From Saccharospirillum sp. (GTDB taxonomy: Bacteria > Pseudomonadota > Gammaproteobacteria > Pseudomonadales > Natronospirillaceae): a stretch of DNA of 64,000 bases. This document shows positions 5,700 to 35,286 of this stretch, piece by piece. The position numbers and the translations under genes were made by a program. The stretch covers positions 1 through 64,000 of the forward strand of contig JAIUML010000018.1 in NCBI GenBank assembly GCA_022565595.1. The letters run 5' to 3'. The notes beneath the pieces were generated by a model. The model was given only the letters and a program-made list of their open reading frames with translations, had not been told where the DNA came from and searched no databases. Each line of letters starts with the position of its first letter. Position 1 is the stretch's first letter.

Positions 5700-5724
5700 G
5701 ATGGACTCCTGTTGTTTCTCGATT

Positions 5725-7838: not shown

Positions 7839-7949
7839 CGAGAGGTGGGGGTAGCCCTTTTTGAGGGCGTCTGCAGACAGGAAGTCTGCAGCCGAGCCCC
7901 CATGGAAGGGTTTACGGCGTCCCTCAAAAAGGGCTACCCCCACCTCTCG
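7839..7949 (+). repeat. GGA-loop structured intergenic repeat, copy 2
   Basis: Perfect 29-bp outer arms (7839-7867 and 7921-7949) flank a 53-nt core. Hairpin a is CTGCAGAC-AGGAA-GTCTGCAG. Hairpin b is CCC-ATGGAA-GGG, and the core ends TTTACGGCGTCCC. The plus-strand sense orientation points toward the 3' end of the acyl-CoA dehydrogenase gene (stop at 7989), so it is antisense to the operon transcript. It is divergent from copy 1, with a 121-nt spacer. Confidence 0.85.
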
Positions 7950-7988
7950 CGGGTTATATCGAAACCTAAAACCAGGCCGTCGACGAAC

Positions 7989-9728
7989 TCAAAATTGGTA
8001 ACTCAGTAAGCCACTGTCGGCTTGCTTTATGCGACACAGTTGGGCCGGGATGTCGGCCAACCAGTGCCCGCAGTAGAACTGTAACAGGGCCCTCAGATTG
8101 TCTCTGTAGGCCGGGTTGACTGTGTCATCCTCGGCCTGAATGACGGCACGGGCCAGTTGCCAGGCACCAGCCAGAGTGCCCGTTGCCTGAAGCAGGGCTA
8201 CGCTGGCCGCGTGCAGGTAGGGCTGGTCGTTGGCCTTGTCCTGAATCAGCCACTGCACATGGTTGCGCAGGGCACCCAGTTGACGGGTGATGGCTGCCCA
8301 TTGCGTCTGGCATACCGAGTGGCCGGTCAGCGGGGCTATGCTGCTTTCTACTCGGCCCAGCCAGGCGAAGAACGCCTCACCCTGGTCACGCAGTATCTTG
8401 CGGAACAGGAAATCCTGCGCCTGTATGCCCGTGGTGCCCTCGTAAATGGTGCTGATTTTCAGATCTCGGTAAAACTGGGCGACACCGGTTTCTTCAACAA
8501 ACCCCATGCCGCCGTAAATCTGGATGGCATCGGCGGTCAGCGCGCAGCCGGTTTCGGTCGACCAGGCCTTGAACACAGGAGTTAACAAGTCCAGTTCCTG
8601 TTGAGCTTCGGCCTGGTGGCGGTGGCCTTGCTGGCGTGCTTCATCGGCACGCAGGCTCAGAGTAGAGCCGAGCAATCGTGCTGCGAGTATCTGGCTGCGC
8701 ATGCGCAGTAATAAGCGTTTGATGTCCGGGTGATCGACCAGTGCAACCGGGCTCTCGCCGCTGGTAACCGAACGGCCCTGCTTGCGTTCCTGAGCCCAGC
8801 CCAGGGCACTTTGGTAAGCGCGCTCGGCAATGGCGACGCCCTGGAGGCCGACGCTTAACCGGGCTTCGTTCATCATCACGAACATGGTGCGCAGGCCCTG
8901 GTTGGGCTCGCCGACGATCTGCCCCCAACTGCCTCCAAAGGTCAGCGAGCAGGTTGGGCTGCCGTGCAGGCCCATCTTGTGTTCGATGCCGGTGCAGAGC
9001 ACGCCATTGGCGGAACCATCGTCCAGTTTATTGGGTACGGCAAAGAGCGAGATGCCTTTGCTGCCGGCTGGTGCGTCGGGCAGTTTGGCCAACACCAGGT
9101 GCAGAATGTTGTCGCTCAGGTCGTGGCTGCCGTAGCTGATATAAAGCTTCTGACCAGAGAGCCGGTAGTTGCCTTTGCCATCCGGTTCAGCGCGGGTTTT
9201 CAGCAGGCCCAGGTCGGAGCCGGCGGAGGGTTCAGTCAGCGCCATAGTGGCACACCAAGCACCGCTGACCAGGCCTTCGCCGTATTGCTCGATCAGAGCC
9301 TCGTTGCCACTGGCCAGCAGGGCTTCGACACTGCCTTCTGTGAGCGGTTGGATCATGCTGAAGGCCAGGTTGGCGCCTTGCCAGAATTCGGCGACTGGCA
9401 TGGCCAAAACCTTGGACAGGCCCTGGCCGCCGAGGCGTTCGGGCAAGCACAGGCCGGTCCAGCCGGAGTCACGAAAAGCGTGATAAGCCTCGACCCAGCC
9501 ATCCGGTGTTGTTACCTGGCCGTTTTCCAGTCGACAGCCTTGCAGATCGCCGCTCTGGTTTAGTGGTGCCAATGCCTGTTCGGCGAACTTTGCAGCTTCG
9601 TCGATGATGGCGTTAACCAGGCTCTCGTCGAGGTTTTCAAAAGCCGTCAACTGCGACAAGCGACCCTTGCCAAGGTGGTGGCGCAGGATGAAATGGACGT
9701 CTTGTGTTGGGGCTTTGTAGTGTGTCAT
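7989..9728 (-). CDS. Acyl-CoA dehydrogenase, long DmdC-like form
   Basis: This FAD enzyme (579 residues) belongs to the long acyl-CoA dehydrogenase group with an extra C-terminal helical domain, as in 3-methylmercaptopropionyl-CoA dehydrogenase DmdC. It has the FAD/substrate motif 'MALTEPSAGSDLG', the 'GLHGSPTCSL' segment, 'YGGMGFVEETGVAQFYRD' and 'YEGTTGIQAQD' with the usual catalytic region. ATG 9728 has only a weak ribosome site. It is 40 nt downstream of the SDR gene in the same operon. The presumed job is to desaturate saturated arylpropionyl-CoA (dihydroferuloyl/dihydrocoumaroyl type) so it can enter the hydratase step. The substrate is inferred from context only. Confidence 0.9.
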   Translation of the reverse strand: MTHYKAPTQDVHFILRHHLGKGRLSQLTAFENLDESLVNAIIDEAAKFAEQALAPLNQSGDLQGCRLENGQVTTPDGWVEAYHAFRDSGWTGLCLPERLGGQGLSKVLAMPVAEFWQGANLAFSMIQPLTEGSVEALLASGNEALIEQYGEGLVSGAWCATMALTEPSAGSDLGLLKTRAEPDGKGNYRLSGQKLYISYGSHDLSDNILHLVLAKLPDAPAGSKGISLFAVPNKLDDGSANGVLCTGIEHKMGLHGSPTCSLTFGGSWGQIVGEPNQGLRTMFVMMNEARLSVGLQGVAIAERAYQSALGWAQERKQGRSVTSGESPVALVDHPDIKRLLLRMRSQILAARLLGSTLSLRADEARQQGHRHQAEAQQELDLLTPVFKAWSTETGCALTADAIQIYGGMGFVEETGVAQFYRDLKISTIYEGTTGIQAQDFLFRKILRDQGEAFFAWLGRVESSIAPLTGHSVCQTQWAAITRQLGALRNHVQWLIQDKANDQPYLHAASVALLQATGTLAGAWQLARAVIQAEDDTVNPAYRDNLRALLQFYCGHWLADIPAQLCRIKQADSGLLSYQF

Positions 9729-20466: not shown

Positions 20467-21810
20467 ATGTCAAAAATACCGAACATGCCGATTAATTTAC
20501 TGAGCAACCCCATGTATTTGAACCCCAGAACCCATACTGACGAGCATCCGCCTTCCTGGTATCAGGACACAAGGCGTTATACCGAAACCTACCCGCGCCT
20601 GGAAGCCGATCTGGAGGCGGATGTCTGTGTGGTGGGTGGCGGCTTTGGTGGCGTCAATACCGCCCTTGAGCTGGCCGAGCGCGGTTATTCTGTTGTGCTG
20701 GTTGAAGGCCGGCGCATAGGCTGGGGCGCTTCCGGTCGCAATGGAGGGCAGTTGATTCAGGGCATTGGCCATGGCCTGGACAAGTTCGCCAATATTCTCG
20801 GCGAGGATGGCGTGAAAGCGGTGGAGGCCATGGGTTTCGAAGCGGTGCGCATCGTGCGTGAGCGCATCGAACGCTACCAGATCGACTGTGATTTCAAACT
20901 TGGCTATTGCGACCTGGCGCTGAAACCAAGGCAGATGAAGGACCTCGAAGCCCTGAAGCGCTGGTTCGACACCGTGGGTTACGAAGCCGAGACCGAACTG
21001 GTGCCACAGCACCGCATGCACGAGGTGGTGGGCTCCAACCGCTATGTGGGCGGCCTGATTGACCGGGGCAGCGGCCATTTGCACCCCTTGAACCTGGTGA
21101 CTGGTGAAGCGAAAGCCGCCTCCGATCGGGGTGTGCGCATTTTCGAACAGAGCCTGGTGACCGAGGTAGTACCCGGCAAGCGCGTTGTTATCAGGACAGC
21201 CCAGGGATCAGTGACCGCCGACCGCGCCGTGCTGTGCGGTAACGCCTATGTGGCTGGGCTGAACCCCGTTCTGGCGGGCAAGGTGCTGCCCGCAGGCAGT
21301 TATCTGATCGCCACTGAACCCCTGGCGGAAGACGTCTGGCAACGCCTCTTACCCCAGGACATGGCCGTTTGCGACCAGAACGTGGCACTGGATTACTATC
21401 GGTTAAGTGCCGACAAGCGGCTGCTGTTTGGCGGCCTGTGCAACTACTCAGGGCGTGACCCGGACTCCATCGCCGGGGTGCTGAAACCGCATCTGGTCAA
21501 GGTGTTTCCAGAACTGGCATCGGTGAACATCGACTACCAGTGGGGCGGAATGATCGGCATCGGCGCCAACCGCTACCCGCAGATCGGGCGGCTGGAACCC
21601 AACCTCTATTACGCTCAAGCCTATGCGGGCCATGGTTTGAACGTAACGCACATGGCGGCCAGGGTGATTGCCGAACATATCCACGGCGAGAGTGAACGAT
21701 TGGACCTGTTCGAGCGCATCAAGCACATCACCTTTCCCGGCGGCCCCAGGTTCCGCTCGCCCTTGCTGGCGGTGGGGATGTTGTATCACCGCCTCAAGGA
21801 CTTTGTTTAA
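20467..21810 (+). CDS. FAD-dependent amine oxidoreductase, PuuB paralogue
   Basis: This DAO-fold flavoenzyme (447 residues) has the dinucleotide-binding motif 'CVVGGGFGGVNTALELAERG' near residue 57. The shared PuuB segments are 'GWGASGRNGGQLIQG', 'SGHLHPLNLVTGEA' and the C-terminal 'YYAQAYAGHGLNVTHMAA'. It is less similar to E. coli gamma-glutamylputrescine oxidase than the second copy at 34000, so it may take another gamma-glutamylated or free amine. It is divergent from puuR and convergent, 10 nt apart, with the fused ATPase gene. Confidence 0.85.
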   Translation: MSKIPNMPINLLSNPMYLNPRTHTDEHPPSWYQDTRRYTETYPRLEADLEADVCVVGGGFGGVNTALELAERGYSVVLVEGRRIGWGASGRNGGQLIQGIGHGLDKFANILGEDGVKAVEAMGFEAVRIVRERIERYQIDCDFKLGYCDLALKPRQMKDLEALKRWFDTVGYEAETELVPQHRMHEVVGSNRYVGGLIDRGSGHLHPLNLVTGEAKAASDRGVRIFEQSLVTEVVPGKRVVIRTAQGSVTADRAVLCGNAYVAGLNPVLAGKVLPAGSYLIATEPLAEDVWQRLLPQDMAVCDQNVALDYYRLSADKRLLFGGLCNYSGRDPDSIAGVLKPHLVKVFPELASVNIDYQWGGMIGIGANRYPQIGRLEPNLYYAQAYAGHGLNVTHMAARVIAEHIHGESERLDLFERIKHITFPGGPRFRSPLLAVGMLYHRLKDFV

Positions 21811-21819
21811 CCGCTTTTA

Positions 21820-24120
21820 TTACTCATACAGAAAACAGGCAACACCGTGATCAGAAGCGATTAACTTCCGGCTGGGTGATTCAGCCTCGGCAAAATGCAC
21901 CCAAAGTGCCTCGCCCTGGTGTGCAAAGCGAGCGGCCTCAACCAGTGTTGGCTGCCGGGCGACCATAATGGTTTTGAGCTCTGCTTCGACTTCCTCGAGG
22001 CTTTTGCCCGCTTGCGGCTGAAAGTGCACGTTCAAGCCTTCCACTGTACCTGCACCGACGGCATTGACCTGTCCATCCTGGATGCGCCATTCGCTGATCG
22101 CGGTCATCACATCCCGACCTTCCCAGCCGCAATGCGCCATGGCTTTTGTGCAGCGGGTATGGAAATTACAACCATTGGGTGGCTCCATAGCGCTGGGTAT
22201 CTCACCAGCGGACTCCAGTGGCGGCTTAACGATAGAGGGATCCGGCTCCGGGCTGGCATCAAGTAACAGTTGGGTGTAGGGGTGCTTGCGCTCGCGCACG
22301 ACTTTTTCGGTTGGCCCGATCTCGACAATTTCGCCAAGATACATGATGGCGGTCCGGTCACAGACGTAGGCAATGGTGGGCAGGTCGTGACTGACATAGA
22401 CAAAAGAAATGCCCAACTGGTCGCGGAAATAGCGCATCAAATTGAGCACGCCAGCTCGGATCGAAACATCCAGCATGGAAACCGGCTCATCGGCTACGAT
22501 GAAACGTGGCTCGGTGACAATGGCCCGAGCAATGGCAACTCGTTGGCGTTGGCCGCCCGACAACTCATGAGGAAAGCGATCGTTGTAAACGCTGGCCGGT
22601 TTTAAACCAGCGCGTTCAAGCGCCTGCACTACTCGTTCACCGATAGCCTCTTTCTGCGCCAGACGGTGAATTTTTACCGGCTCGGCAACGATGTCGTAGA
22701 TGGTAAAACGCGGATTCAGGGTCTGATAGGGATCCTGAAACATCATCTGGGCGGCCCGTCGAAAAGCCTTCATGCCCGGGCCATCCAGCTCGGCGATGTT
22801 CTGGTGGTCGAAGCGAATGACGCCCTCGGTCGGTTCTTGAAGACGCACCAGCAACTCACCCGTTGTGGTTTTGCCAGAGCCGGACTCGCCCGCCAATCCC
22901 AGTATTTCACCTTCAAACAATTCGAAGTCAATACCGTCGACGGCATGAACCGTGCTGGCTTTGCGTTTGCCGGGCATCAGGCTGGCCAGAAAGCCGGGTT
23001 CCTGACCAAAGTGTTTCTTCAGGCCTTCAACCTGAACCAGAGGCTTGTCAGACAAGACTTTCTCGAGAGAGACGTTGGCCTGAACCGTCTCACCGAGCCG
23101 ATCACCCACCGCTTGCCAGGTCGCGTTAAGAGCGGCGCGAGTGCGAAAGTCCTCGACCTGATCAGGATAGTGACAGGCCGCCTGCCGCTCGTCTCCGACG
23201 GATTGCAAAGCAGGCGTTTTACTCCTGCAGAGGTCGGTTGCAAAGGGGCAGCGCTCCGCGAAACGACAGCCAGAAGGTGGATTGAGCAAGTCAGGTGGGG
23301 TGCCAGGAATGGAAATCAACTCACGTTGGGCACCTTCGAGAGTCGGAAAGGCGTTGGTTAACCCCATGGTGTAAGGATGAAAGGGCGTTGCGAACACCTC
23401 ACGCACAGGCCCCGTTTCCATTACATGGCCGCCGTACATGACGACGACACGATCGCAAGTCTGCACGACGACAGAAATATCGTGAGTGATGAACATCAAG
23501 GCAAGGCCGCGTTCTTTGCGCAACCGGCTGAGCCTGGCCAGAATCTGTGCCTGGGTGACCACATCCAGAGCCGTTGTTGGCTCGTCAGCGACAATCAATT
23601 TCGGGTTCAGCGCCAAAGCCATGGCAATAACCGCACGCTGCTTCATGCCGCCACTCATTTCGTGGGGGAAGGCATTGAGTCGATCCGGGTCTATGCCAAC
23701 AGCTCGGAATAAGTCGGCGGCGTGGTTCAGGCCTTCTTCACGGCTGATGGTGATGTGGGCCTGCATTGCCTCCAGCATCTGATCACCCACCCGATAGACA
23801 GGGTCGAGCGCATTCATGGCTGCTTGAGATATCCAGGCGATGTCTTTCCAACGGGTGCGCCGCATGGACTCTTCATCCATGTTCAGTAAATCGCGACCCA
23901 TAAAGTCAATGTCACCCGTTGGGGTACGCCCATTGGGCGGCAACAGCCGAAGCATGGCTTTGGCCGCTGTCGTTTTACCGCATCCCGATTCTCCTACCAG
24001 CCCCAGGGCTTCGCCAGGTCTTACGTGAAAGCTGACCTGGTCTACCGCCTGCACTGGCCCGGCAGAGGTATCGTAATGAATGCTCAGGTTGTTGATGTTT
24101 AAAATGGTATCTGCACTCAT
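21820..24120 (-). CDS. Peptide-type ABC transporter ATPase, fused DppD-DppF
   Basis: This ATPase of 766 residues carries two complete nucleotide-binding domains. Domain 1 (about 5-310) has GESGCGKTT, 'HEMSGGMKQRAVIAMAL' and 'LIVADEPTTALD', followed by the Cys-rich oligopeptide-transporter tail 'CRFAERCPFATDLC'. Domain 2 (about 365-680) has GESGSGKTT, 'HELSGGQRQRVAIARAI' and 'IVADEPVSMLD', with a second tail 'CNFHTRCTKAMAHC'. About 80 further residues follow that I cannot assign. ATG 24120 overlaps the permease stop (ATGA). It powers the unusual permeases DppB/DppC-propeller upstream in the operon. Confidence 0.93.
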   Translation of the reverse strand: MSADTILNINNLSIHYDTSAGPVQAVDQVSFHVRPGEALGLVGESGCGKTTAAKAMLRLLPPNGRTPTGDIDFMGRDLLNMDEESMRRTRWKDIAWISQAAMNALDPVYRVGDQMLEAMQAHITISREEGLNHAADLFRAVGIDPDRLNAFPHEMSGGMKQRAVIAMALALNPKLIVADEPTTALDVVTQAQILARLSRLRKERGLALMFITHDISVVVQTCDRVVVMYGGHVMETGPVREVFATPFHPYTMGLTNAFPTLEGAQRELISIPGTPPDLLNPPSGCRFAERCPFATDLCRSKTPALQSVGDERQAACHYPDQVEDFRTRAALNATWQAVGDRLGETVQANVSLEKVLSDKPLVQVEGLKKHFGQEPGFLASLMPGKRKASTVHAVDGIDFELFEGEILGLAGESGSGKTTTGELLVRLQEPTEGVIRFDHQNIAELDGPGMKAFRRAAQMMFQDPYQTLNPRFTIYDIVAEPVKIHRLAQKEAIGERVVQALERAGLKPASVYNDRFPHELSGGQRQRVAIARAIVTEPRFIVADEPVSMLDVSIRAGVLNLMRYFRDQLGISFVYVSHDLPTIAYVCDRTAIMYLGEIVEIGPTEKVVRERKHPYTQLLLDASPEPDPSIVKPPLESAGEIPSAMEPPNGCNFHTRCTKAMAHCGWEGRDVMTAISEWRIQDGQVNAVGAGTVEGLNVHFQPQAGKSLEEVEAELKTIMVARQPTLVEAARFAHQGEALWVHFAEAESPSRKLIASDHGVACFLYE

Positions 24121-25862
24121 CGACGAGCCCTCAAACGCGGGTTGGCAACCAGTTCCAGTGAACGGGAGATGAAGAACACAGACAGCACTGTGATCATGAT
24201 GAATATGCCGGGTGGAATGTTCCACCACCAGGCTTCACGCCAGGCACCAGACAGCCGTGCGTTATGCAAGATGCCACCCCATGAAATCGACTGGGGTGGA
24301 CCCAGACCGAGGAAGGATAGAGTCGCCTCTGCGATGATGGAAACGCCAACGATGATTGCCAGCTCCAGGAACACCAGAGGTAAGACATTGGGGAAAATAT
24401 GCAGATACATGATGCGCAAATTCGAGGCACCAGAAACACGTGCCGCTTTCACAAAAGGCCGTTCACGCAATGAGAGAACTTGTGAGCGAATCAAGCGAGC
24501 CACTGTACGCCAGGTCAGTAGCGATACCGCCAGGATAACAATCAGCAGACTGGGCTCAAACAATAGCACCAGAATTAGCGCGAATGGCTCAAAGGGAATG
24601 CCGTACATGACATCCACTGTGCGCATCAGCACAGTTTCTGTGCGACCTCTGTAATAGCCAGCCACCAGGCCAACGTTGGCACCAATCAACACCACCAGAG
24701 TCGCGCCTAAAAAGCCAACCAGCAATGCGATGCGTGAGCCATGAACATTCTGACTGAACAGGTCTCGCCCCAGGTGGTCGGTTCCGAACCAGTGCTCTCG
24801 GGTGGGTGCGGACAAGCGGTTCACGTATCGGTCTGAGCCGAGGGCATAATAGCCTTGTGGCGTTACCATCAGGCTGCGTAAATGCCGAGAGCCGATGGTG
24901 TCAGCCATCTGCCAGATGCCATTGGGTTCGCGCTCCATGATAATGCCATGTCGACCAGCGGCTATGGCTGAGCCATCGTCGCTGATCCAGGCGGCGTTCA
25001 TTACCCGGCTGTCGGGTGCTGTTTCGGCAGCCCAGCTTCCATCCGGGCCTTCACGAACAAGCAGAGTGCCGCGTTCACCCACCACCAGTGCCGTGCCATT
25101 GTCCGCAATGCTGATCGCATTCATGCTGCGATTGGACGGCAGCCGAATCAAAGTCAGGTCACTGCTTTGCGTATCAAAGGTTAACGCCAGGCCTCGGTCG
25201 CCAACGACAAAGGCATTGCCGTTGTGGTCTCGGGCGACCGCATTCAATGAGATGCCTCGGTTAACGGGGCTGGTCAGCGTTTCGATAATCGGCGCCTGGT
25301 CAGGCTGAAACTCGATGCGGATGATGACTTCATCATCACCTACTGCGAGTGCTACCTGATCCGTTAGCCAGGCGACGCTGTTAAGGGACGCCTCGACCGG
25401 GCTATTCAGGGACTGAAGCTGTTCGCCTTCCAAAACAGCCAATTGACCAGTTTCGCCTACCAGAATGGCTTTTTGCTGGCTATTCAACGCCAAAGCATGC
25501 CAATTGGTGTCGCTGATCTCCGGCAGTCTTTGCCAATTGCCATCCTGATAGCGATAGATCAGCCCGGTTCTGGCGACGGCAAGGCCAAGGCCCTGGTGAT
25601 AGTCCGCAGCATAGAGGGTGCGATCTCCCAGTGGCGTCTGGCTTTGCCATTGGCGTCTTTCGGGGTCACCGTCAGCGCGTACCAGCAAGGTACCTTCTTC
25701 TCGTTCATTGATATGGAGAGGGTCATGAGTAGCCAGGAAGGGCGCAAAAATGGCCATTGCGATGATGGCGAAAAGAACAACAGAGCCCAACAGAGACATA
25801 CGGTCACTGGCAATGGCTCGCAGTGGTTCGGCCATGCCTTTGAATGCAGAGAGTCCTATCAT
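24117..25862 (-). CDS. DppC-type ABC permease with a large periplasmic propeller-like insertion
   Basis: This permease has 581 residues where the family has about 290-320. TM1 is at about 23-43, ending 'APFLATHDPLH' as in DppC. Standard DppC sequence resumes at 'HWFGTDHLGRDLFSQ' (357-371) and runs through five more helices and the EAA loop (VKAARVSGASNLRI). Between them, about 52-350 is inserted and should face the periplasm. It shows about seven repeats of roughly 40 residues, each with a pattern like 'MNAISIADNGTALVVGERG', with the VG(D/E) or equivalent near 98, 136, 175, 221, 262, 303 and 342. This resembles YCF48/BNR-class seven-bladed propellers. Both ends overlap neighbours by ATGA, so the frame is intact. 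Confidence 0.9.
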   Translation of the reverse strand: MIGLSAFKGMAEPLRAIASDRMSLLGSVVLFAIIAMAIFAPFLATHDPLHINEREEGTLLVRADGDPERRQWQSQTPLGDRTLYAADYHQGLGLAVARTGLIYRYQDGNWQRLPEISDTNWHALALNSQQKAILVGETGQLAVLEGEQLQSLNSPVEASLNSVAWLTDQVALAVGDDEVIIRIEFQPDQAPIIETLTSPVNRGISLNAVARDHNGNAFVVGDRGLALTFDTQSSDLTLIRLPSNRSMNAISIADNGTALVVGERGTLLVREGPDGSWAAETAPDSRVMNAAWISDDGSAIAAGRHGIIMEREPNGIWQMADTIGSRHLRSLMVTPQGYYALGSDRYVNRLSAPTREHWFGTDHLGRDLFSQNVHGSRIALLVGFLGATLVVLIGANVGLVAGYYRGRTETVLMRTVDVMYGIPFEPFALILVLLFEPSLLIVILAVSLLTWRTVARLIRSQVLSLRERPFVKAARVSGASNLRIMYLHIFPNVLPLVFLELAIIVGVSIIAEATLSFLGLGPPQSISWGGILHNARLSGAWREAWWWNIPPGIFIMITVLSVFFISRSLELVANPRLRARR

Positions 25863-26842
25863 TTGAAGCTCACCCTTGGATCCAGCATTGTATAGAGAAG
25901 ATCAACCAGTAGATTTAAGGTAATCACAAAGGCCGCCATCACCAGGAAGCTGGCCTGTGCCAGAGGAAAATCTGAAGTACGTACCGCGTTCAATATCTCT
26001 CGGCCCAACCCGGGCCATGAAAAGACCACCTCGACCACGACCTGGCCACCCGCAGCGAGGCCAATGGTGACCGCCAACTGGGTAACGACGGGAAGCAGAG
26101 CATTACGTGCCGCGTGGTTGTAGAGAATCTTGCGCTCGGGCAACCCCTTGGCGCGTGCCATTTCGATAAAGTCTTCGCCGTATACTTCGAGCATGGTATT
26201 GCGCATGATCAGCAAGGGGGAGCCAAGATAGTAGAGCGCTACGATCAGGGCCGGTAATATTAAATGGGCCAGAAAGTCGAGCGTGAAAATCTTGTCGAGA
26301 AAACCACTGGCCTCATACGGCAAGGTGCGCATCCCACTGGTAGGAGACCAGCCGAGAAAAATACCGAAGAAAAGGATGGCAATCATGCCAGTCCAGAACA
26401 TGGGTGCGGAGCGGAACATCAGGCCAATAAAGACCCCAACGGTGTCGGTACGCGAACCGCGCCGCCACGAAAGCCAGGCGCCCAGAGGTACGCCAACGCC
26501 ATAGGCAAGAATGATGGCGGGAATCATCAGCACCATGGTATTGCCCAGACGCTCCCATATAATATCTGCTACCGGTGCTCGGTAGTGAAAGGAAAAGCCG
26601 AAATCGCCTTGAACAATGTTGACCAGGTAGATGACGTATTGTTCCCACAAAGGTTTATCCAGGCCAAAGCGTGCGCGAACCATCTCGCGTTCTGCCTGGC
26701 TTAAACCTTCCGTGATTAACGCCGCAGTCGGATCAGGAAGACCCAGGCGAAATAGAAAGAACAGGAGCGTCGCAATGATAAAAAGCGCCATGGCACCATG
26801 CAGCACCCGGCGCATCATGTAACTTCTGCGTGCAGACGACAT
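25859..26842 (-). CDS. Peptide-type ABC transporter permease (DppB family)
   Basis: This permease (327 residues) has six hydrophobic helices and ordinary DppB features: 'LGLDKPLWEQYVIYL'-like 'FGLDKPLWEQY', 'GDFGFSFHYRAPV', the EAA loop 'IEMARAKGLPERKILYNHAARNALLP' region and 'VVVEVVFSWPGLG'. Its length and motifs are normal, in contrast to its DppC partner. The stop overlaps the DppC start by ATGA. It lies 114 nt downstream of the binding-protein gene, across an attenuator-like hairpin. Confidence 0.93.
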   Translation of the reverse strand: MSSARRSYMMRRVLHGAMALFIIATLLFFLFRLGLPDPTAALITEGLSQAEREMVRARFGLDKPLWEQYVIYLVNIVQGDFGFSFHYRAPVADIIWERLGNTMVLMIPAIILAYGVGVPLGAWLSWRRGSRTDTVGVFIGLMFRSAPMFWTGMIAILFFGIFLGWSPTSGMRTLPYEASGFLDKIFTLDFLAHLILPALIVALYYLGSPLLIMRNTMLEVYGEDFIEMARAKGLPERKILYNHAARNALLPVVTQLAVTIGLAAGGQVVVEVVFSWPGLGREILNAVRTSDFPLAQASFLVMAAFVITLNLLVDLLYTMLDPRVSFK

Positions 26843-26913
26843 ATTGGGTTCCGTTTAACAAAGGTTCACAGCATCCGAGAGAACGTCGGACGGGGTATGC
26901 TGTTTCTTGAGGG

Positions 26914-26935
26914 AAAAGAGCCACCGAGTGGTGGC
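26914..26935 (-). terminator. Attenuator-like hairpin between binding-protein and permease genes
   Basis: On the minus strand a 6-bp GC-rich stem (GCCACC-ACTC-GGTGGC) is followed by TCTTTTCCC. It sits just after the binding-protein stop and probably gives partial termination. A second inverted repeat (CAGCAT / ATGCTG, about 26871-26902) is adjacent. Confidence 0.5.
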
Positions 26936-26956
26936 CCTGTATTTTTCAAACTGGTC

Positions 26957-28564
26957 TTAACGCATCAGATGGCCGTCGCTATTCCAGCTATAGCCTGCTG
27001 CGCGCAGTTCTTCCCGAGCGGCTTCCATATCAAAATCGAAACGCTCGACAAAGGATTCGTGCCAGAAAGCGTTGACGGGGGCGATCACGGATGAGCCTAC
27101 TTCACCTCGGCCTTCCAGCAGTACATCCACCATGCGGTTGCGATCGATGGCACGCGTCAAGGCTCGACGAGCGGCGCGGTCGTCAAAAGGAGCTCGACGC
27201 AGATTGTACGTCATGTGGAAGTAGCCAAAGTCTGGCACGCTGACAACGTTCAAATGGCTTTGCTGCTCGGCCAGGCCAATTTGACCAGGTTCCATGCGCC
27301 ACGCAGTCATGTCAATTTCACCAGTCTGCAGTCCGGTATACACCCCTTCCATATCGGCGTAGATGATGAATTCAACACCATCAACGGCGATGTTATCGGC
27401 GTACCAGTGCTGGTCGAATTTGCTGATCGACATGTATTCGCCGCGGTCAAAACGCTCGAACTTGAAGGGACCTGACCCGACCATGGGGATATCGGAAGGG
27501 GCCAAAGCGCCGGCGTCTTCAATGCCTTCCCATAAATGCTTGGGCAGAATCGGCAACTGCGACAGGGTGATACTCCCGAACGATGCGGAAGGCTGGCTCA
27601 GATGGAAGCGTACGGTGCGGTCATCAACCTGCTCTGCATTGTCGAGTACTGCCAGGTAAGAGTTGAAGTAGTTGTAACTCTGCCCCAGGTAGTAGTTGAA
27701 CGTAAAAGCGACGTCAGCTGCGGTTACCGGTTCACCATCGTGGAAGGTCATGCCGTCGCGCAGAACCACTTCAATGGTCGTTTCATCAAGAGCGGTAACG
27801 CTTTCTGCTGCCCATGGCAAAGGTTCGACATCGGCACTCAGACGTACAAGGCGGTCGTAGTACAAGCGCATCCACTTCCAGCCCCAGACCGATGTTGAGT
27901 CGAGTGGGTTAAGGTTGTCGGGTTCTTGTGGCCCGCCGATGCGTAAGGTTTGTCGATCACCCAGAGGAACGGCTTCCATGGGGCCCCACTCACTGTATAA
28001 ACCTTCGCCTGCCATGACCTGGAAACCTTCGAAGGCGTCCTGGTTATAGGCGACCACTTCATCACGGTGGAATAAAACGACAACGGGAATATCGCTTTTA
28101 TACATATCCTGCATTTGCTGCACGATTTGCTGGCGCGACTCGTTGTTAAACTCCATGGACTGTTGATCGAAGAGATCGTCGTACTCAGCGTTCTCGTAAC
28201 CGCCCGGATTGTTGCCACCGAGGCCTGCCTGACGCGAATCCAGAGTATTCAGAAAGAACTGAGGGTCGAGTCGATCTGTGCGACCGCTCCAGCCAAGAAT
28301 TACTGCATCGAAATCCTGCTGATCGTAAAAGCGTTCCAGGGCGGTACTGAACTCAGTTGGTGACACTGTGACGTCAAGGCCAAGCTCGCGCCAACGTTCG
28401 GCTACCATGAAAGCGGCTTCGTAGCGAATAGGGTCGTAGGATTCGGTGGTGGTAATGAGGTTGATTGCAGGGACTCGTTCTTGAGCGAGGGCGGGGGTTG
28501 CCGTAATCCCTAACAGGGATACACCGACCAAGGCGGTCGACAGTAGTGTGTTATTGACTCTCAT
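26957..28564 (-). CDS. Family-5 (peptide-type) solute-binding protein with circularly permuted domain order
   Basis: This periplasmic protein has 535 residues and a signal peptide at 1-27 (ALA-Q). The family-5 fold is present in swapped order. Residues about 30-197 correspond to the usual C-terminal part: 'AINLITTTESYDPI', 'VAERWRELGLDVTVSP', 'FDAVILGWSGRTDRLDPQ', then 'DIPVVVLFHRDEVVAYN'. At about 205 the usual mature N-terminus begins (TLRIGGPQEPDNLNPLDS), followed by 'AESVTALDETTIEVVLRDG', 'VTAADVAFTFNYYLG' and 'GSGPFKFERFDRGEYM'. The protein stops after 'AREELRAAGYSWNSDGHLMR', exactly where normal members continue into the segment found here at the front. ATG 28564 has AAGGA 9 nt upstream. 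It is first in the importer operon. Confidence 0.9.
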   Translation of the reverse strand: MRVNNTLLSTALVGVSLLGITATPALAQERVPAINLITTTESYDPIRYEAAFMVAERWRELGLDVTVSPTEFSTALERFYDQQDFDAVILGWSGRTDRLDPQFFLNTLDSRQAGLGGNNPGGYENAEYDDLFDQQSMEFNNESRQQIVQQMQDMYKSDIPVVVLFHRDEVVAYNQDAFEGFQVMAGEGLYSEWGPMEAVPLGDRQTLRIGGPQEPDNLNPLDSTSVWGWKWMRLYYDRLVRLSADVEPLPWAAESVTALDETTIEVVLRDGMTFHDGEPVTAADVAFTFNYYLGQSYNYFNSYLAVLDNAEQVDDRTVRFHLSQPSASFGSITLSQLPILPKHLWEGIEDAGALAPSDIPMVGSGPFKFERFDRGEYMSISKFDQHWYADNIAVDGVEFIIYADMEGVYTGLQTGEIDMTAWRMEPGQIGLAEQQSHLNVVSVPDFGYFHMTYNLRRAPFDDRAARRALTRAIDRNRMVDVLLEGRGEVGSSVIAPVNAFWHESFVERFDFDMEAAREELRAAGYSWNSDGHLMR

Positions 28565-28700
28565 AATGGCCATTCCTTTTCTCATATTTTTATGTGCAAG
28601 GAAGGGCCACCCTAGGGCGCTGTTCGAATGGCTGTCAATTTAGACACGGTTGTATAATTAAAGCTGGCTGTAAATTATGTCTTACAGGGTTGGTGAAGTC

Positions 28701-28725
28701 GTGGGCCAGATGCTATCTGGCCCAC
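28701..28725. repeat. 11-bp hairpin between puuC and the importer operon
   Basis: A perfect inverted repeat (GTGGGCCAGAT / ATCTGGCCCAC, 3-nt loop) begins 5 nt past the puuC stop. It lacks a T-run in the puuC direction, so it may stabilise the mRNA end or terminate weakly. The sequence between here and 28564 otherwise holds only AT-rich promoter-like DNA for the binding-protein gene. Confidence 0.5.
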
Positions 28726-28729
28726 ACTT

Positions 28730-30226
28730 TTACAGCTTGATCCAGGTGGCCTTGATCTCACTGTATTTATCGAAGGCATGCAGCGATTTATCACGACCGT
28801 TACCGGATTGCTTGTAGCCACCGAAGGGCGCTGTCATGTCGCCACCATCCCACTGGTTGACCCAGACCGAGCCAGCCCGCAAGCCGCGAGCAAAGCGGTG
28901 GGCACGGCTCAGGTTGCTGGTCCAGACGGCTGCGGCGAGGCCGTAGACGGAATCGTTGGCGATGCGCAGGGCGTCGGCTTCGTCGGTGAATCGCACCACG
29001 GAGAGGACAGGGCCGAAGATCTCTTCCCGACAGATGCTCATGCCGGGCTGAACGTCTTCAAAGACGGTAGGTTCGATGAAGTAACCGCCATCGACGGTGC
29101 TCTGGCGCTGTCCGCCCAGGGTCATGCGCGCGCCTTCTTTCTGGCCGCTGTCTATAAAGCCCAGCACCCGGTTCATCTGGGCTTCGTCCACTATGGCACC
29201 GACGTTGGTGTTCGGGTCCAGCGGGTGGCCAGGCCGCCACTTGGCGATGGCGTGACGAACTTTCTCCATAAAGGTGTCGGCGATGCTGTCTTCGACCAGC
29301 AGGCGGGAGGCGGCGGTGCAGACTTCGCCCTGGTTGAAGCAGATGCCTTCGGCGGCGGCTTCGGCGGCGGCATCCAGATCGGGTGCATCGGCAAAGACCA
29401 CGTTGGGTGACTTGCCTCCGGCTTCGGTCCAGACGCGTTTCATGTTGGATTCGCCAGCGTAAATCATCAGCTGTTTGGCAATGGCTGTGGAACCGGTAAA
29501 GACCAGGGTGTCGACGTCCATGTGCAGCGCCAGAGCTTTGCCGACGGTGTGACCGAAGCCAGGCAAGACATTGAAGACGCCATCGGGAATGCCGGCTTCT
29601 TTGGCCAAGGCAGCAATGCGCAAGGCCGAGAGTGGGGACTTCTCGGACGGCTTGAGGATCACCGAGTTGCCCATGGCCAGGGCCGGGCCAATTTTCCAAC
29701 TGGCCATGATCAGCGGGAAGTTCCACGGGACGATGGCCGCGACCACGCCCACGGCTTCACGAGTAACCAGGCCCAGTTCGTTGGCAGCGGTGGGGGCGAC
29801 TTCATCGTACAGCTTATCTATCGCTTCGGCCGACCAGCGCAGGCTGCGCGCAGTGGAGGGCAAGTCGACGTGCAGGGCATGATTGATGGGTTTGCCCATA
29901 TCGAGCGTTTCCAGCAGCGCTAGCTCTTCCTTGTTTTGTTCAATCAGGTCGGCAAAGCGTAGCATCCGCTGTTTGCGTTTGGCGGGCGGCATTTGCGACC
30001 AGACGCCGCTGTCAAAGGCGGCCCGCGCTGCCTTGACGGCGCGATCGGCATCGGCCGCATCGCAACTGGCGACTTCCGTCAACAGGCGATTGTCGATTGG
30101 GCTGCGTGATTCGAAGGTGGCGCCATCAGCACTGTCTGTATAAGCACCCTGAATCCAGGCGCGACCTTCTGGTTGCAGTTGCTCGGCTTTTTGTGTCCAG
30201 TCGTTCAGGCTCATTGAGTGGCTCAT
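28730..30226 (-). CDS. puuC: Gamma-glutamyl-gamma-aminobutyraldehyde dehydrogenase-type ALDH (PuuC)
   Basis: This NAD(P)-dependent aldehyde dehydrogenase has 498 residues (E. coli PuuC has 495). The general base Glu is in 'TEAGGKSPNVVFAD' and the catalytic Cys in 'NQGEVCTAASRL'. The fold motifs 'VPWNFPLIMASWKIGPAL' and 'PFGGYKQSGNGRDKSLHAFDKY' match PuuC-type enzymes. ATG 30226 follows AAGGGGGTGCC. It is divergent from the aminotransferase across a promoter region with PuuR-like sites. It would oxidise aminoaldehydes from polyamine breakdown (for example 3-aminopropanal to beta-alanine or the glutamylated equivalent). Confidence 0.88.
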   Translation of the reverse strand: MSHSMSLNDWTQKAEQLQPEGRAWIQGAYTDSADGATFESRSPIDNRLLTEVASCDAADADRAVKAARAAFDSGVWSQMPPAKRKQRMLRFADLIEQNKEELALLETLDMGKPINHALHVDLPSTARSLRWSAEAIDKLYDEVAPTAANELGLVTREAVGVVAAIVPWNFPLIMASWKIGPALAMGNSVILKPSEKSPLSALRIAALAKEAGIPDGVFNVLPGFGHTVGKALALHMDVDTLVFTGSTAIAKQLMIYAGESNMKRVWTEAGGKSPNVVFADAPDLDAAAEAAAEGICFNQGEVCTAASRLLVEDSIADTFMEKVRHAIAKWRPGHPLDPNTNVGAIVDEAQMNRVLGFIDSGQKEGARMTLGGQRQSTVDGGYFIEPTVFEDVQPGMSICREEIFGPVLSVVRFTDEADALRIANDSVYGLAAAVWTSNLSRAHRFARGLRAGSVWVNQWDGGDMTAPFGGYKQSGNGRDKSLHAFDKYSEIKATWIKL

Positions 30227-30287
30227 GGCACCCCCTTAAATGGTCAATCTGAAGAGGGTGACACCTTACCTCAAGCACCCTCAAAGT

Positions 30288-30301
30288 TTCAATATATTGA
30301 A
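30288..30301. promoter_or_regulatory. Palindromic operator candidate, puuC/aminotransferase promoter
   Basis: TTCAATATATTGAA is a perfect 14-bp palindrome, 62 nt upstream of the puuC start in the divergent promoter region. Its TTCA-AT half resembles the PuuR half-site. Confidence 0.45.
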
Positions 30302-30443
30302 CGCCTGGCCGCGATTTTGTATGCCTACAATATCCACGATAGCCTGTTTTTATCTAGCCAGAGAAGCTGTGTTGTCATAGGGAGGGTCAGAGTCTTACGG
30401 AGGGGTTGATGTTTTATTTATTTTACATACACTGGCAGCAGTA

Positions 30444-30458
30444 TGTTCAATATAACAA
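30444..30458. promoter_or_regulatory. Candidate PuuR operator upstream of the aminotransferase
   Basis: TGTTCAATATAACAA shares TGTTCA-x-TATA character with the inverted PuuR site and with the palindrome at 30288. It lies 57 nt before the aminotransferase ATG. Confidence 0.4.
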
Positions 30459-30514
30459 ACAACCTCGAGCCTGGTACCATGCCTGGTTCAGTGTTTTGTG
30501 AGTGAGAGCGAGCC

Positions 30515-31813
30515 ATGAAAACCGATGCCTTCTGGATGCCATTTACCGCCAACCGCCAATTCAAGGCCGAACCCCGTCTACTGGTGGCGGCCGAGGGTAT
30601 GCATTACACCGATGAAGAAGGCCGCACCCTGCTCGACGGCACAGCTGGTCTCTGGTGTGTGAATGCCGGCCATGGCCGTAAAGAAATCAGTGCCGCCGTG
30701 CATCATCAGATTGATCAAATGGACTATGCCCCGACTTTTCAAATGGGCCACCCCAAGCCGTTCGAGTTCGCCGAACGCCTGATCAAGCACACACCGGAAG
30801 GTATCAATAAGGTCTTCTTCACCAACTCGGGTTCCGAGTCGGTCGATACTGCTTTGAAGATTGCGCTGGCTTACCACAGAGCCAAAGGCCAGGGCGAACG
30901 CACCCGCCTGATCGGCCGCGAAAAAGGCTACCACGGCGTCGGTTTCGGCGGCATTTCTGTCGGTGGCCTGGTCAACAATCGCAAGATGTTCGGCACCCTG
31001 CTCAACGGCGTCGACCACATGCGCCACACCCTGCTGCCGGAAAACGCTTTCAGCAAAGGCCTGCCAAAACATGGCGCAGACCTGGCCGATGACCTCGAAC
31101 GCATGATCGCACTGCACGGCGCAGAAACCATCGCCGCCGTAATCGTCGAGCCGGTATCCGGTTCCGCTGGCGTAGTGCTGCCACCAGAAGGCTATTTACA
31201 GCGCCTGCGCGATATCACCAGACAGCACGGCATTCTGCTGATTTTCGACGAAGTCATTACCGGTTTCGGCCGAGTGGGCACCCCCTTCGCCGCAACCCGT
31301 TTCGGCGTCACGCCAGACCTGATGACCACAGCCAAGGGCCTGACCAACGGCGCCATTCCCATGGGTGCTGTCTTCGCGGCCGACTTCATCTACGATGCTT
31401 TCATGAGCGGCCCGGACTCGGTCATCGAACTGTTCCACGGTTATACCTATTCCGGACACCCGGTGGCGGCCGCAGCAGGCATCGCCACCCTGGACATCTA
31501 CGAACGCGAAGGGCTGTTCGAGCGTGCTCTGGAACTCGAAGACACCTTCGCCGAGGCGTTACACAGCTTGCGCGACCTGCCCAACGTGAAGGACATCCGC
31601 AACATCGGCCTGGTCGGCGGTGTTGAGCTCGAGGCCAACGGTCAGCCAGGCAAGCGCGGTTACGAGGTGTTCCACCATTGTTACTGGAAAGAAAACACCC
31701 TGGTGCGCTGCACCGGAGACATCATCGCCATGTCGCCACCGCTGATCATCTCCGAAGCCCAGATCGCGGAATTAGTGGAGGCGTTGCGTAAGTCCATTTT
31801 GGCGGTTGGCTAG
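30515..31813 (+). CDS. Omega-amino acid--pyruvate (beta-alanine--pyruvate) aminotransferase
   Basis: This class-III PLP aminotransferase has 432 residues. It begins 'FWMPFTANRQFKAEPRLL' and has 'GTAGLWCVNAGHGR', 'FFTNSGSESVDTALK', 'IGREKGYHGVGFGGISVGG' and 'LIFDEVITGFGR', with the PLP Lys in 'TTAKGLTNGAIPMG'. All of these are diagnostic of the Pseudomonas-type omega-amino acid:pyruvate transaminase. It converts beta-alanine plus pyruvate to malonate semialdehyde plus alanine, supplying MmsA encoded downstream. It is divergent from puuC. The ATG lies 9 nt after a GAGAGCGAG stretch. Confidence 0.93.
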   Translation: MKTDAFWMPFTANRQFKAEPRLLVAAEGMHYTDEEGRTLLDGTAGLWCVNAGHGRKEISAAVHHQIDQMDYAPTFQMGHPKPFEFAERLIKHTPEGINKVFFTNSGSESVDTALKIALAYHRAKGQGERTRLIGREKGYHGVGFGGISVGGLVNNRKMFGTLLNGVDHMRHTLLPENAFSKGLPKHGADLADDLERMIALHGAETIAAVIVEPVSGSAGVVLPPEGYLQRLRDITRQHGILLIFDEVITGFGRVGTPFAATRFGVTPDLMTTAKGLTNGAIPMGAVFAADFIYDAFMSGPDSVIELFHGYTYSGHPVAAAAGIATLDIYEREGLFERALELEDTFAEALHSLRDLPNVKDIRNIGLVGGVELEANGQPGKRGYEVFHHCYWKENTLVRCTGDIIAMSPPLIISEAQIAELVEALRKSILAVG

Positions 31814-31954
31814 GCTTTAGTATTCGACACCCCCCAGCCGCTGGCCATCTCGACTAAACTCTATCTACACGCATGCAAGACAACTTGGGGGGCAGTTATT
31901 GGCGCTCCAAAGTATTTATGTGGTGTTATTGTGTCGATTAGTGAGCAGTGGATG
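31814..31954. other. Leader/intergenic sequence before repeat copy 3
   Basis: This gap holds an inverted C6/G6 pair (CCCCCCA near 31836 with TGGGGGG near 31887), then the string CTCCAAAGTATTTATG. It may be a degenerate, reversed partner of repeat copy 3, by analogy with pairs 1/2 and 4/5. No gene is seen. Confidence 0.3.
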
Positions 31955-32049
31955 CCCGGCAGGCCTTTCCGGGGGCGTCTGCGGCCAGGACGGCCGCAGT
32001 CGAGCCTACAGGGATGTATTTATGGCGTCCCCCGGAAAGGCCTGGCGGG
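31955..32049 (+). repeat. GGA-loop structured intergenic repeat, copy 3
   Basis: The outer arms pair at 20 of 21 positions (31955-31975 with 32029-32049), and flanking GCAGTGGATG / TAGCCGCTGC extends the stem. Hairpin a is CTGCGGCC-AGGAC-GGCCGCAG. Hairpin b is TACA-GGGA-TGTA within CTACAGGGATGT, 11 of 12 to the CsrA SELEX consensus RUACARGGAUGU. It lies 54 nt before the mmsA ATG in sense orientation. Confidence 0.85.
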
Positions 32050-32103
32050 TAGCCGCTGCGGACCCAGCCGACAAAAAGCCACCGAACCGAACAGAGGTGA
32101 GCA

Positions 32104-33591
32104 ATGCAACAGATTAACCATTTTGTGAACGGCGAACTGACATCCGCCAGTGACCGCCATGCACCGGTATATAACCCGGCCCTGGGTGAACAAACCGGCC
32201 AGGTGTCATTGGCCAGTGCCGATGAAGTTCGTCAGGCGATTGCCAATGCGCAGGCTGCCTTTCCTGACTGGGCAGAGACCAGCCCCTTGAACCGCTCGCG
32301 AATTCTGTTCCGGTTCAAAATGATCCTGGAAGAACGCCTTGATGAACTGGCCCGAGTGGTCAGTGCCGAACACGGCAAGGTGTTTGAAGACGCCCGTGGT
32401 GAAGTGATTCGTGGCATGGAAGTGGTGGAGTTTGCCTGTGGCATCCCACAACTGCTCAAGGGTGAATACACCGACCAGGTCGGCCGAGGTGTCGATGCCT
32501 GGTCGATGAACCAGCCTTTGGGTGTGGTCGCTGGCATCACGCCGTTCAACTTCCCTGCCATGGTGCCCATGTGGATGTGGCCGGTTGCCATTGCCTGTGG
32601 TAATACCTTCATTCTGAAACCATCGGAAAAAGACCCCAGTGCCCCTTTGCTGGTGGCGAAATGGTTGAAAGAAGCCGGTTTGCCGGATGGCGTATTGAGC
32701 GTCGTCAACGGTGACAAAGAAGCCGTCGACGTACTGCTCACCGACCCCGCCATTCAGGCCGTCAGCTTTGTTGGCTCGACGCCCATTGCGGAATACATTT
32801 ATCGCACCGCCAGTGAACACGGCAAGCGCGTTCAGGCGCTCGGTGGTGCCAAGAACCACCTGGTAGTTATGCCCGATGCGGATATTGATGGCGCGGTCAA
32901 TGCTCTGACCGGGGCAGCTTTCGGCTCAGCCGGTGAGCGTTGCATGGCCATTTCGGTTGCCGTAGCCGTTGGTGATATTGGCGATGAACTGGTAGAAAAG
33001 CTGGCCGAGAAAGCGCGCACTTTGAAGATCGGTAACGGTGCCGAGAAAGGCCTGGATATGGGCCCGCTGGTGACCAAAGAGCACCTGGCGAAGGTTAAGG
33101 GCTATGTCGACAAGGGCGTGGCAGAAGGCGCGACTCTGGTAGTCGATGGCCGCGAACTGAAAGTGCCAGGCTGTGAAAGCGGCTACTTTATGGGTGGTTG
33201 CCTGTTTGATCATGTCACCTCAGATATGGTCATCTATCAGGAAGAAATTTTTGGCCCGGTGCTATGTGTGGTACGAGTGCCGGATTATGTGTCGGCGGTG
33301 AAGCTGGTCAACGGACACGAGTACGGTAACGGTACGTCCATTTTCACGCGCAGTGGCGGTGTAGCACGTCAATACGTGCGAGACATTCAGGTAGGCATGG
33401 TAGGCGTTAACGTCCCCATTCCAGTGCCGATGGCGTTCCATTCCTTCGGTGGATGGAAGCGCTCGCTGTTCGGCAGTAATCATGTTCACGGTATGGAAGG
33501 CGTCAAGTTCTACACCAGACGCAAGGCGGTCACCGCCCGCTGGCCAGAAGGTGACCTCGGCGCTGAATTTGTCATGCCTACCTTGAAGTAG
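32104..33591 (+). CDS. mmsA: Methylmalonate/malonate-semialdehyde dehydrogenase (CoA-acylating)
   Basis: This CoA-dependent aldehyde dehydrogenase has 495 residues. It has the MMSDH-specific '[23 protein letters not shown]', the catalytic Cys in '[12 protein letters not shown]', and lacks the usual ALDH general-base context, having '[16 protein letters not shown]' instead. The ending '[18 protein letters not shown]' is typical. It turns malonate semialdehyde into acetyl-CoA and CO2, completing beta-alanine breakdown after the aminotransferase. ATG 32104 follows GAGGTGAGCA. Its leader carries repeat copy 3. Confidence 0.93.
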
Positions 33592-33620
33592 CTGGTTGGT
33601 TTGTTACATCGACAGAATAC

Positions 33621-33734
33621 GCGCTGGCAGTCGGATAGGCCCCTGGTGGGACGCTGTAAATAACTCCCTGTACGCTCGTCGGTTCCCATCCATGGGAACC
33701 GACGCCCACCAGTGGCCTACCCGACCACCAGCGC
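33621..33734 (-). repeat. GGA-loop structured intergenic repeat, copy 4
   Basis: The outer 30-nt arms (33621-33650 with 33705-33734) match at 26 positions. On the minus strand, hairpin a is a 12-bp stem with loop TGGA (CGTCGGTTCCCA-TGGA- and its complement). The second GGA site is GTACAGGGAGTT, and the core ends TTTACAGCGTCCC. It starts 30 nt after the mmsA stop and is antisense to it. It is divergent from copy 5, with a 96-102 nt spacer. Confidence 0.82.
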
Positions 33735-33830
33735 TCGGCTGGTTAACAAAATAAAATGTATAGCAACCAACCAATAATGCTTTTGTGATTAAATTCATGA
33801 TCCGACTTATAACTTAGGCTATTGACGAGA

Positions 33831-33952
33831 TGTGAGCGACGGATGCCGGTGGTACCTCTGCAGGGTAGTCCGCAGCCCGGACGGCTGCGGTCTAGGCCCC
33901 ATGGATGGGTTCACGCCGACCCTGCAGAGGTACCACCGGTAGCCGGCGCGGA
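33831..33952 (+). repeat. GGA-loop structured intergenic repeat, copy 5
   Basis: Perfect 20-bp arms (33846-33865 and 33920-33939) are extended by GCGACGGATG / TAGCCGGCGC. Hairpin a is CCGCAGCC-CGGAC-GGCTGCGG. Hairpin b is CCCA-TGGA-TGGG. The first 18 nt recur exactly at 38201. It ends 48 nt before the puuB ATG in sense orientation. Confidence 0.83.
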
Positions 33953-33999
33953 TGTTATGTACAATACACAAATATTGAGGCATTAACCAAGAGGCCACC

Positions 34000-35286
34000 A
34001 TGGTCAATAGAACAGAACATACCACCTCCTATTATGCGTCGACGTGTAATGAGGTTCAGGATCGTCCGGCGTTGGCAGAGGCCATCGAAGCGGATGTTTG
34101 CATTATTGGCGCCGGGTTTACCGGGCTTTCTACTGCCCTGCATTTGGCTGAGGCCGGGTTCAAGGTGGTGGTGCTGGAGGCCGCCCGTATTGGCTTTGGT
34201 GCCAGTGGCCGCAACGGCGGTCAGTTGGTGAATAGCTACAGCCGCGACATCGATGTGATCGAGAAAAACTACGGCACGGAGATGGGCAAGTCGCTGGGCA
34301 GTATGGCCTTTGAAGGGGCGGATATTATTCGTCAGCGCATTGCTGATTATCAGATCGATTGTGATTATCGGGACGGTGGTGTTTTTGCTGCGTTCAATAA
34401 ACGGCAGATGCACGAGCTGAGTGAGCAGAAGAAACTCTGGGAACGTCATGGTCATGATCAACTGGAACTGATGGACCAGGATCGGATTCGTGAGGTGGTG
34501 GATTCTCCGGCCTACATCGGTGGTTTGCTCGACAAGCGTGGCGGCCATATTCATCCGTTGAACCTGGCCTTGGGTGAGGCCGATGCCATTGAGCAACTCG
34601 GTGGCCGAATTTTCGAAGATTCCAAGGTGATTCGGATTGACCGAGGCGAGCGGCCGGTGGTCTATACCGAACAGGGCCAGGTGACGGCCGACTATCTGAT
34701 GATTGCCGGTAATGCTTATCTCGGTGGCCTGGTGCCCGAGTTGGCTGCCAAGTCGATGCCTTGTGGTACACAAATTATTACCACAGAAGTCCTGGGCGAG
34801 GAGCGTGCGCGGCAACTGATTCCCGATTTGTATTGTGTGGAAGACTGCAATTACAAGCTGGACTATTACCGCATGACTGGCGACTTCCGTTTGCTCTATG
34901 GTGGTGGGGTGACCTACGGTGGTGGTGATCCGGCTTCTATTGAGGCGTTTTTACGACCGCGTCTGGAGCAGACTTTTCCGCAACTCAAAGGCGTTCGTTT
35001 TGACTTTGCCTGGGGCGGTGATTTCCTGTTGACCATGAGTCGTTTGCCGCAGTTTGGTCGCATTGGTAATAACATCTATTACGCCCAGGGCTACAGTGGC
35101 CATGGTGTCACGACGACGCATCTCGCCGGTAAGCTGATTGCTGAAGCGCTCAAGGGGCAGGCCGAACGCTTTGATGCGTTCGCCAGTTTGAAACACTACT
35201 CCTTTCCGGGTGGGCAGGTGTTCCGGGTGCCTTATACTGCCCTGGGGGCTTTTTATTACGGCCTGCGTGACAAGCTGGGTATCTAA
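34000..35286 (+). CDS. puuB: Gamma-glutamylputrescine oxidoreductase (PuuB)
   Basis: This FAD-dependent amine oxidase (428 residues) is very similar in layout to E. coli PuuB (426). It has 'CIIGAGFTGLSTALHLAEAG', 'IGFGASGRNGGQLVNSYSRD', 'GGHIHPLNLALGEADAI', 'SMPCGTQIITTE', 'YCVEDCNYKLDYYR' and 'YYAQGYSGHGVTTTHLAGK'. It would oxidise gamma-glutamylputrescine (or the diaminopropane analogue) to the aldehyde used by PuuC. No glutamylating puuA is in the window. ATG 34000 follows AAGAGGCCACC. It is convergent with the TetR gene, 4 nt apart. Confidence 0.93.
   Translation: MVNRTEHTTSYYASTCNEVQDRPALAEAIEADVCIIGAGFTGLSTALHLAEAGFKVVVLEAARIGFGASGRNGGQLVNSYSRDIDVIEKNYGTEMGKSLGSMAFEGADIIRQRIADYQIDCDYRDGGVFAAFNKRQMHELSEQKKLWERHGHDQLELMDQDRIREVVDSPAYIGGLLDKRGGHIHPLNLALGEADAIEQLGGRIFEDSKVIRIDRGERPVVYTEQGQVTADYLMIAGNAYLGGLVPELAAKSMPCGTQIITTEVLGEERARQLIPDLYCVEDCNYKLDYYRMTGDFRLLYGGGVTYGGGDPASIEAFLRPRLEQTFPQLKGVRFDFAWGGDFLLTMSRLPQFGRIGNNIYYAQGYSGHGVTTTHLAGKLIAEALKGQAERFDAFASLKHYSFPGGQVFRVPYTALGAFYYGLRDKLGI

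Follow-up and report, generated by a model that had tools for sequence, protein, structure and literature searches.

The window, by which we mean the whole 64,000-nucleotide stretch of DNA analysed here, encodes a 535-residue protein that is almost certainly a genuine, naturally occurring circular permutation of the binding-protein fold of family 5 (OppA/DppA, cluster C), with the canonical C-terminal part placed in front of the N-terminal part. Family-5 proteins are among the commonest prokaryotic binding proteins, and we consider it probable that they have been permuted repeatedly in nature, at no fewer than three cut sites, that permuted and canonical forms serve the same kind of orthologous operon in Halobacteria, and that re-tethering was possibly selected. 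Type 1, the order of the window protein, has its cut behind the final helix of the N part, type 3 just before that helix and type 2 in the loop after an NPxYW-like motif.

Gene and domain order

The open frame runs from ATG 28564 to a stop codon at 26957–26959 (a start at the in-frame ATG 28585 would give 542 residues). AAAAGGAA is located upstream of ATG 28564, and a signal peptide (...ITATPALAQE) can be read by eye. The gene divides as follows.

26957..28564, (-) strand: family-5 solute-binding protein gene, read as circularly permuted, 535 aa (alternative in-frame ATG 28585)
27977..28465, (-) strand: residues 34–196, the canonical C-terminal part, now in front (from out-of-order matches)
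27953..27997, (-) strand: new junction, residues 190–204, joining the old C-terminus to the old N-terminus (from profile ends)
26966..27955, (-) strand: residues 204–533, the mature N-terminal part of canonical members, which stops in the loop that follows the AREELRAAGY helix (from Pfam, phmmer and structural alignment)

In native order the 535-residue chain matches a single Pfam family, SBP_bac_5 (252.6 bits, cut-off 32.4), in two stretches, the best of which places residues 248–531 on profile positions 2–284; the first 199 residues alone place residues 34–111 on positions 288–363. As the initial annotation had foreseen, un-permuting the chain (residues 200–535 then 31–199) leaves one continuous stretch, 49–416 on profile 2–362, at 265.6 bits. 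Against AppA (1xoc), phmmer aligns residues 207–532 to 24–352 and 40–190 to 366–511, which is out of order. Two stretches in native order, one after un-permuting and a swapped AppA match form the pattern of circular permutation; chance as the source of the out-of-order matches is ruled out by the Pfam results in both orders together with the same-order homologues described below. That annotation had set the C-terminal segment directly behind the signal peptide (residues ~30–197) and the mature N-terminus at ~205, limits which, like the C-terminal sequence it quoted, are correct to within a few residues (~34–196, then ~204–533).

Membership of PF00496 (SBP_bac_5) rests on a score over the curated cut-off and on homology of both the N- and C-terminal parts; the by-eye signal peptide and the OppB/OppC-type permease and ATPase genes of the operon also meet the criteria of the family, whereas the canonical cluster C topology, N part before C part, is a criterion that the window protein fails. 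Known SBP_bac_5 proteins (OppA, DppA, AppA and NikA) share with it both homologous halves, the fold of the larger part (by model) and the type of importer operon, but differ in linear order, which in the window protein is C part then N part. The cluster B (periplasmic sugar-binding) fold is not met either, the sole Pfam match being SBP_bac_5 and the best solved relatives family-5 proteins.

Natural permutation has a precedent outside the family. According to the report on Treponema pallidum Tp0684 (TpMglB-2; proposed 'Type Ic / Cluster Bc'), this binding protein is a natural circular permutation in which N-lobe strands found near the N-terminus in relatives sit near the C-terminus, and the authors propose a link between permutation and tethering (PMC4990184). 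Tp0684 resembles the window protein in being naturally permuted, itself keeping ligand binding, and differs in that it binds glucose, belongs to cluster B and not to family 5, and is cut at another site. We found no described circular permutation in family 5 in the open-licence literature; the initial annotation, which knew of none in the family, holds to that extent. Natural permutation is accordingly new to family 5, not to binding proteins.

Predicted structure

An AlphaFold2 model built from 54 aligned orthologues is confident (pLDDT 90.3, pTM 0.83). Foldseek and VIA-align match it to family-5 proteins over residues ~197–535, with AppA best (Z 26.1, rmsd 3.5, 328 aligned). Sequential aligners cover only this region (one match starts at 177) and little elsewhere, as expected for a permuted chain; all the Foldseek and VIA matches shown are sequential and uninformative on residues 34–196. 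A structure prediction had been proposed as a check, and it is met as far as a confident single-chain model goes; that the front segment occupies its canonical place rests on homology and pTM, without superposition.

The front segment of one chain might instead complete the fold of a second, making a domain-swapped dimer the working unit. The shortness of the new linker (11–17 residues between profile ends) leaves room for this, no oligomer prediction being at hand, but both parts are modelled with confidence in a single chain (pTM 0.83), and we regard such a dimer as very unlikely.

Retaining the single permuted chain, we infer that the old C- and N-termini were fused by a short linker and that the chain gained new ends in the loop behind the final helix of the canonical N-terminal part, probably through tandem gene duplication and subsequent trimming of both ends, although no duplicated intermediate was seen in the loci scanned. 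The chain would still fold as a two-lobe flytrap and bind a periplasmic solute, which remains unshown; the permutation would shift the termini and leave the pocket in place.

Operon partners and likely role

The genes that follow encode a permease pair and a fused ATPase.

25859..26842, (-) strand: partner permease of OppB/DppB type (permB), 327 aa
24117..25862, (-) strand: partner permease of OppC/DppC type (permC), 581 aa, its first transmembrane helix followed by an inserted propeller
24837..25691, (-) strand: inserted 7-bladed beta-propeller, permease residues ~58–342 (from model and fold match)
21820..24228, (-) strand: two Opp/Dpp-type ATPases fused in one frame, listed at 802 aa (translation more likely starts at the ATG of residue 37)

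In the clade of the window protein, permB follows the binding-protein gene in 56 of 60 loci (the remaining four have 60 bases or fewer left), and an OppC-type permease and a fused double ATPase come next where the locus is long enough. By our proposal the binding protein would dock on its own permease pair and the fused ATPase would drive transport; transport is unshown. An alignment of the window with 32 loci of its clade places an insert of ~285 residues between the first and second transmembrane helices of permC. The permC model (mean pLDDT 82.5, pTM 0.65) has a DppC-like membrane part, so that the partner matches DppC/OppC permeases (8z1w_B and others) in its transmembrane part and departs from them in carrying the propeller after the first helix. 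The insert folds like 7-bladed propellers, including WRAP designs and YCF48, and by inference lies on the periplasmic side. By sequence its sole Pfam match, Beta-prop_EML_2, stays below threshold (21.4 bits, cut-off 90), and in the PDB nothing is better than E 0.035; a literature search listed no described case of a propeller inserted in such a permease.

The propeller-bearing permease can be rejected as the cause of the permutation. In ten distant type-1 loci (L086, L087, L089 and L092–L098) permC is matched only from residue 333 or later, and the frames, 303–407 aa, are too short for the insert; L090 and L091, with longer frames running on into the ATPase, were left uncounted. Given this ordinary-length permease, the permutation is probably the older of the two traits, a judgement that rests on sequence comparison alone.

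Could some permuted proteins have left transport altogether and act as sensors or other receptors? Four haloarchaeal loci of one type-1 subclade (L201, L202, L203 and L211) lack Opp permease or ATPase hits over the ~11 kb retrieved, and in that subclade a PAP2-family gene adjoins the binding protein (in L202, region 3468–8797, Pfam finds two copies; homologues are adjacent in 9/9 loci fetched, namely L184, L201–L206, L209 and L211). The gene nevertheless heads an importer operon in the window clade, and permease and ATPase genes stand beside it in the distant L106–L109, L214, L215, L219 and L220; we give a sensory role little credence.

The window protein is likely to serve an Opp/Dpp-type importer as its flytrap receptor, with the substrate unidentified and no binding or transport data to hand. 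The DppABCDF structure report has DppA Asp436 and Arg383 holding the dipeptide termini (PMC12136057). The window protein has Arg at the Asp436 position, which would speak against DppA-style dipeptide binding; the Arg383 position could not be aligned reliably. Across 50 C-first representatives the Asp436 position is Arg in 20, His in 10 and Asp in 5, and among canonical representatives it is variable too, with Asp in 11 of 40, so this residue does not appear to separate permuted from canonical proteins in general.

At 20467–35286 in the window the importer lies amid genes for a PuuC-like dehydrogenase, an AptA-type aminotransferase, a methylmalonate-semialdehyde dehydrogenase (MmsA-like) and two DAO-family oxidoreductases, a hint of amine or beta-alanine catabolism. 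The other window-clade loci examined did not show this catabolic neighbourhood. Nor did a search for a conserved metabolic neighbourhood in the clade return one: among the 45 largest gene clusters printed, the window occurs only in three, which are the operon's own genes, and 41 flanking frames from eight loci (picked by codon-position GC; two of the 43 listed were left out of the Pfam comparison) have no Pfam family in more than two members. Distant type-1 operons adjoin hydantoinase/oxoprolinase, M20 and M28 peptidase, or creatininase genes.

Distribution of the permuted order

Orthologues in the same order, another check that had been proposed, were found in many lineages. The initial genome scan returned 80 loci. 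A half-model scan of the open reading frames of 200 loci and the window gave 149 frames with C before N (115 unique), 48 unique canonical frames, 6 with the N part alone and 3 in another order; with 20 further stretches the unique frames came to 136 C–N, 48 N–C, 3 of a third kind, 6 N and 1 C. Some C-first frames are cut by contig ends, and one of the 136 (L191) was afterwards typed as type 3. C-first order is present in Pseudomonadota, Trueperaceae, Spirochaetota, Actinomycetota, Bacillota and haloarchaea. Measured in 130 of the 136 frames, the junction between profile ends spans 11–17 residues in every case (130/130), and 123 of these frames end no more than 20 residues from the profile end.

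Profile A3, which spans the new junction and tells permuted from canonical proteins, matched 18 of 20 test handles at 1e-40; the misses are the handles of L099 and L101, whose proteins gave one in-order Pfam stretch. At this threshold it matches 85 of 242 sampled genomes of Halobacteria (the class of L089), with C before N in 17/17 of the hits fetched and classed. Matches number 11/289 in Alphaproteobacteria (the class of L046), 10/249 in Bacillota (the phylum of L094; three of these are type-2 proteins), 3/246 in Actinomycetota (the phylum of L092), 10/111 in the phylum of L070 (a Trueperaceae genome) and 1/274 in the Gammaproteobacteria sample, the single match being the window's own genome. 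Only part of the first-look candidates was scored, so that these counts, which include the centre genomes, are lower bounds. In the window's genus, the five other genomes encode family-5 proteins but give no full-length match in permuted order. A tblastn search of 2900 plasmid records gave 61 with query coverage of 80% or more, which is not a count of permutants because canonical proteins joined from two pieces are included. Cytobacillus L110 and Meiothermus L111 turned out to be canonical.

An assembly join, or fused pieces of two neighbouring binding-protein genes, for which the many canonical family-5 genes of the genome might supply material, is refuted by same-order orthologues in unrelated assemblies, including complete chromosomes and plasmids, and further opposed by one open frame and by concordant trees of both halves; this leaves it next to no chance and bears out the claim of a single intact frame made at the outset. 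The permutation is an old and widespread trait of the family, no peculiarity of the window genome. Annotated records name permuted proteins plainly 'ABC transporter substrate-binding protein', and annotation blind to domain order thereby hides a trait matched in about one-third of sampled Halobacteria. As a separate observation, the haloarchaeal loci L202, L203, L204 and L205 each have two permuted binding-protein genes close together.

Phylogeny and further permutation types

Trees were built from 176 open reading frames, those with one half missing or short being excluded. The 93-row set had type-1-order permuted rows thinned at 62% and canonical rows at 90% identity; 15 more rows were dropped to leave 78, on 38 of which approximately unbiased (AU) tests were run with a simpler model. 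A tree of the two halves, put back into canonical order, collects 39 of its 40 C-first rows in one group, which also takes in the canonical row L180; a larger tree of the N half groups 49 of 50, with canonical L099 and L180 inside. Trees of the N half and of the C half each unite 16 of 17 C-first rows, the 17th (L191, type 3) falling beside canonical proteins, and the three type-2 rows fall within the C-first group in the C-half tree and next to it in the N-half tree. When the family of L191 is added, a branch with support 92 separates the 16 other C-first rows from all remaining ones. One clade for all C-first rows has AU p 0.233 with both halves together (38 rows), 0.285 for the N half alone and 0.0476 for the C half alone; such a single clade is not shown, and is strained by L191.

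Type 2 is represented by L161, L162 and L163, whose chains run N2–C–N1 and stop behind a motif that aligns to the NPxYW loop (NPIYW, NPNYW and YEDFW). Pfam again gives two stretches each, including residues 4–230 on profile 141–353 in L163, 21–252 on 136–363 in L162 and 28–257 on 144–365 in L161, and permease and ATPase genes lie near all three. Of 72 genomes from the class to which L163's genome belongs (also that of the Limnochordia locus L076), 19 match a full-length type-2 profile, 17 of them in full length and two as fragments on separate contigs. A joint clade of types 1 and 2 is not rejected (AU p 0.223, 38 rows), and whether the type-2 ancestor was canonical or type 1 stays open. Beside type-2 binding proteins in L216, L217 and L218 are OppC-like frames of 427–510 aa stop to stop, above the usual length; an insert and an unused upstream stretch cannot be distinguished there.

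Type 3 was recognized in L191, whose protein, read by eye, begins with the helix that ends type 1, placing the cut just before that helix. At 1e-60 this protein (P0002) finds matches in 30 of 242 Halobacteria: 20 genomes, its own included, have a collinear full-length match (one with an internal stop) and ten have partial matches, eight of which list both parts, with the C part immediately behind the N part on one strand. Ten stretches were fetched, five canonical (N part 42–46%, C part 48–55% identical) and five permuted (38–44%, besides the query's own). All ten have permB, permC and ATPase genes in the same layout, with permB 53–67% identical across the canonical and permuted sets, and their binding proteins form one clade (100). 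For this tree and its AU tests L191 was excluded, the same protein entering as L248, and an extra C-half match of 5.9 bits in L249 was treated as noise. Types 1 and 3 as one clade are rejected (AU p 3e-59), and type 3 would therefore be a permutation independent of type 1, as far as sequence trees can tell. The canonical five are nested within the permuted five, which would mean reversal or several events; since a single permuted clade is not rejected (AU p 0.266), we claim no direction, permutation or reversal, for type 3.

A lipobox cysteine is visible by eye in archaeal and Gram-positive members (for example L086, L087, L089, L094, L247 and L248), and in types 1 and 3 with a lipobox the membrane tether would sit elsewhere on the protein. 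Selection may favour this re-tethering, by analogy with what was suggested for Tp0684. The type-3 homologues, canonical and permuted within one operon layout, make a rare before-and-after pair for how permutation arises and for the roles of termini and tether position, and the cut sites are nature-tested positions for building sensors from the family-5 fold. In the first ATPase gene of L242, L244, L245, L246 and L248, the match to the window ATPase breaks at about residues 109–113, with ~70–90 extra residues that are probably an insert; L243 has no such break.
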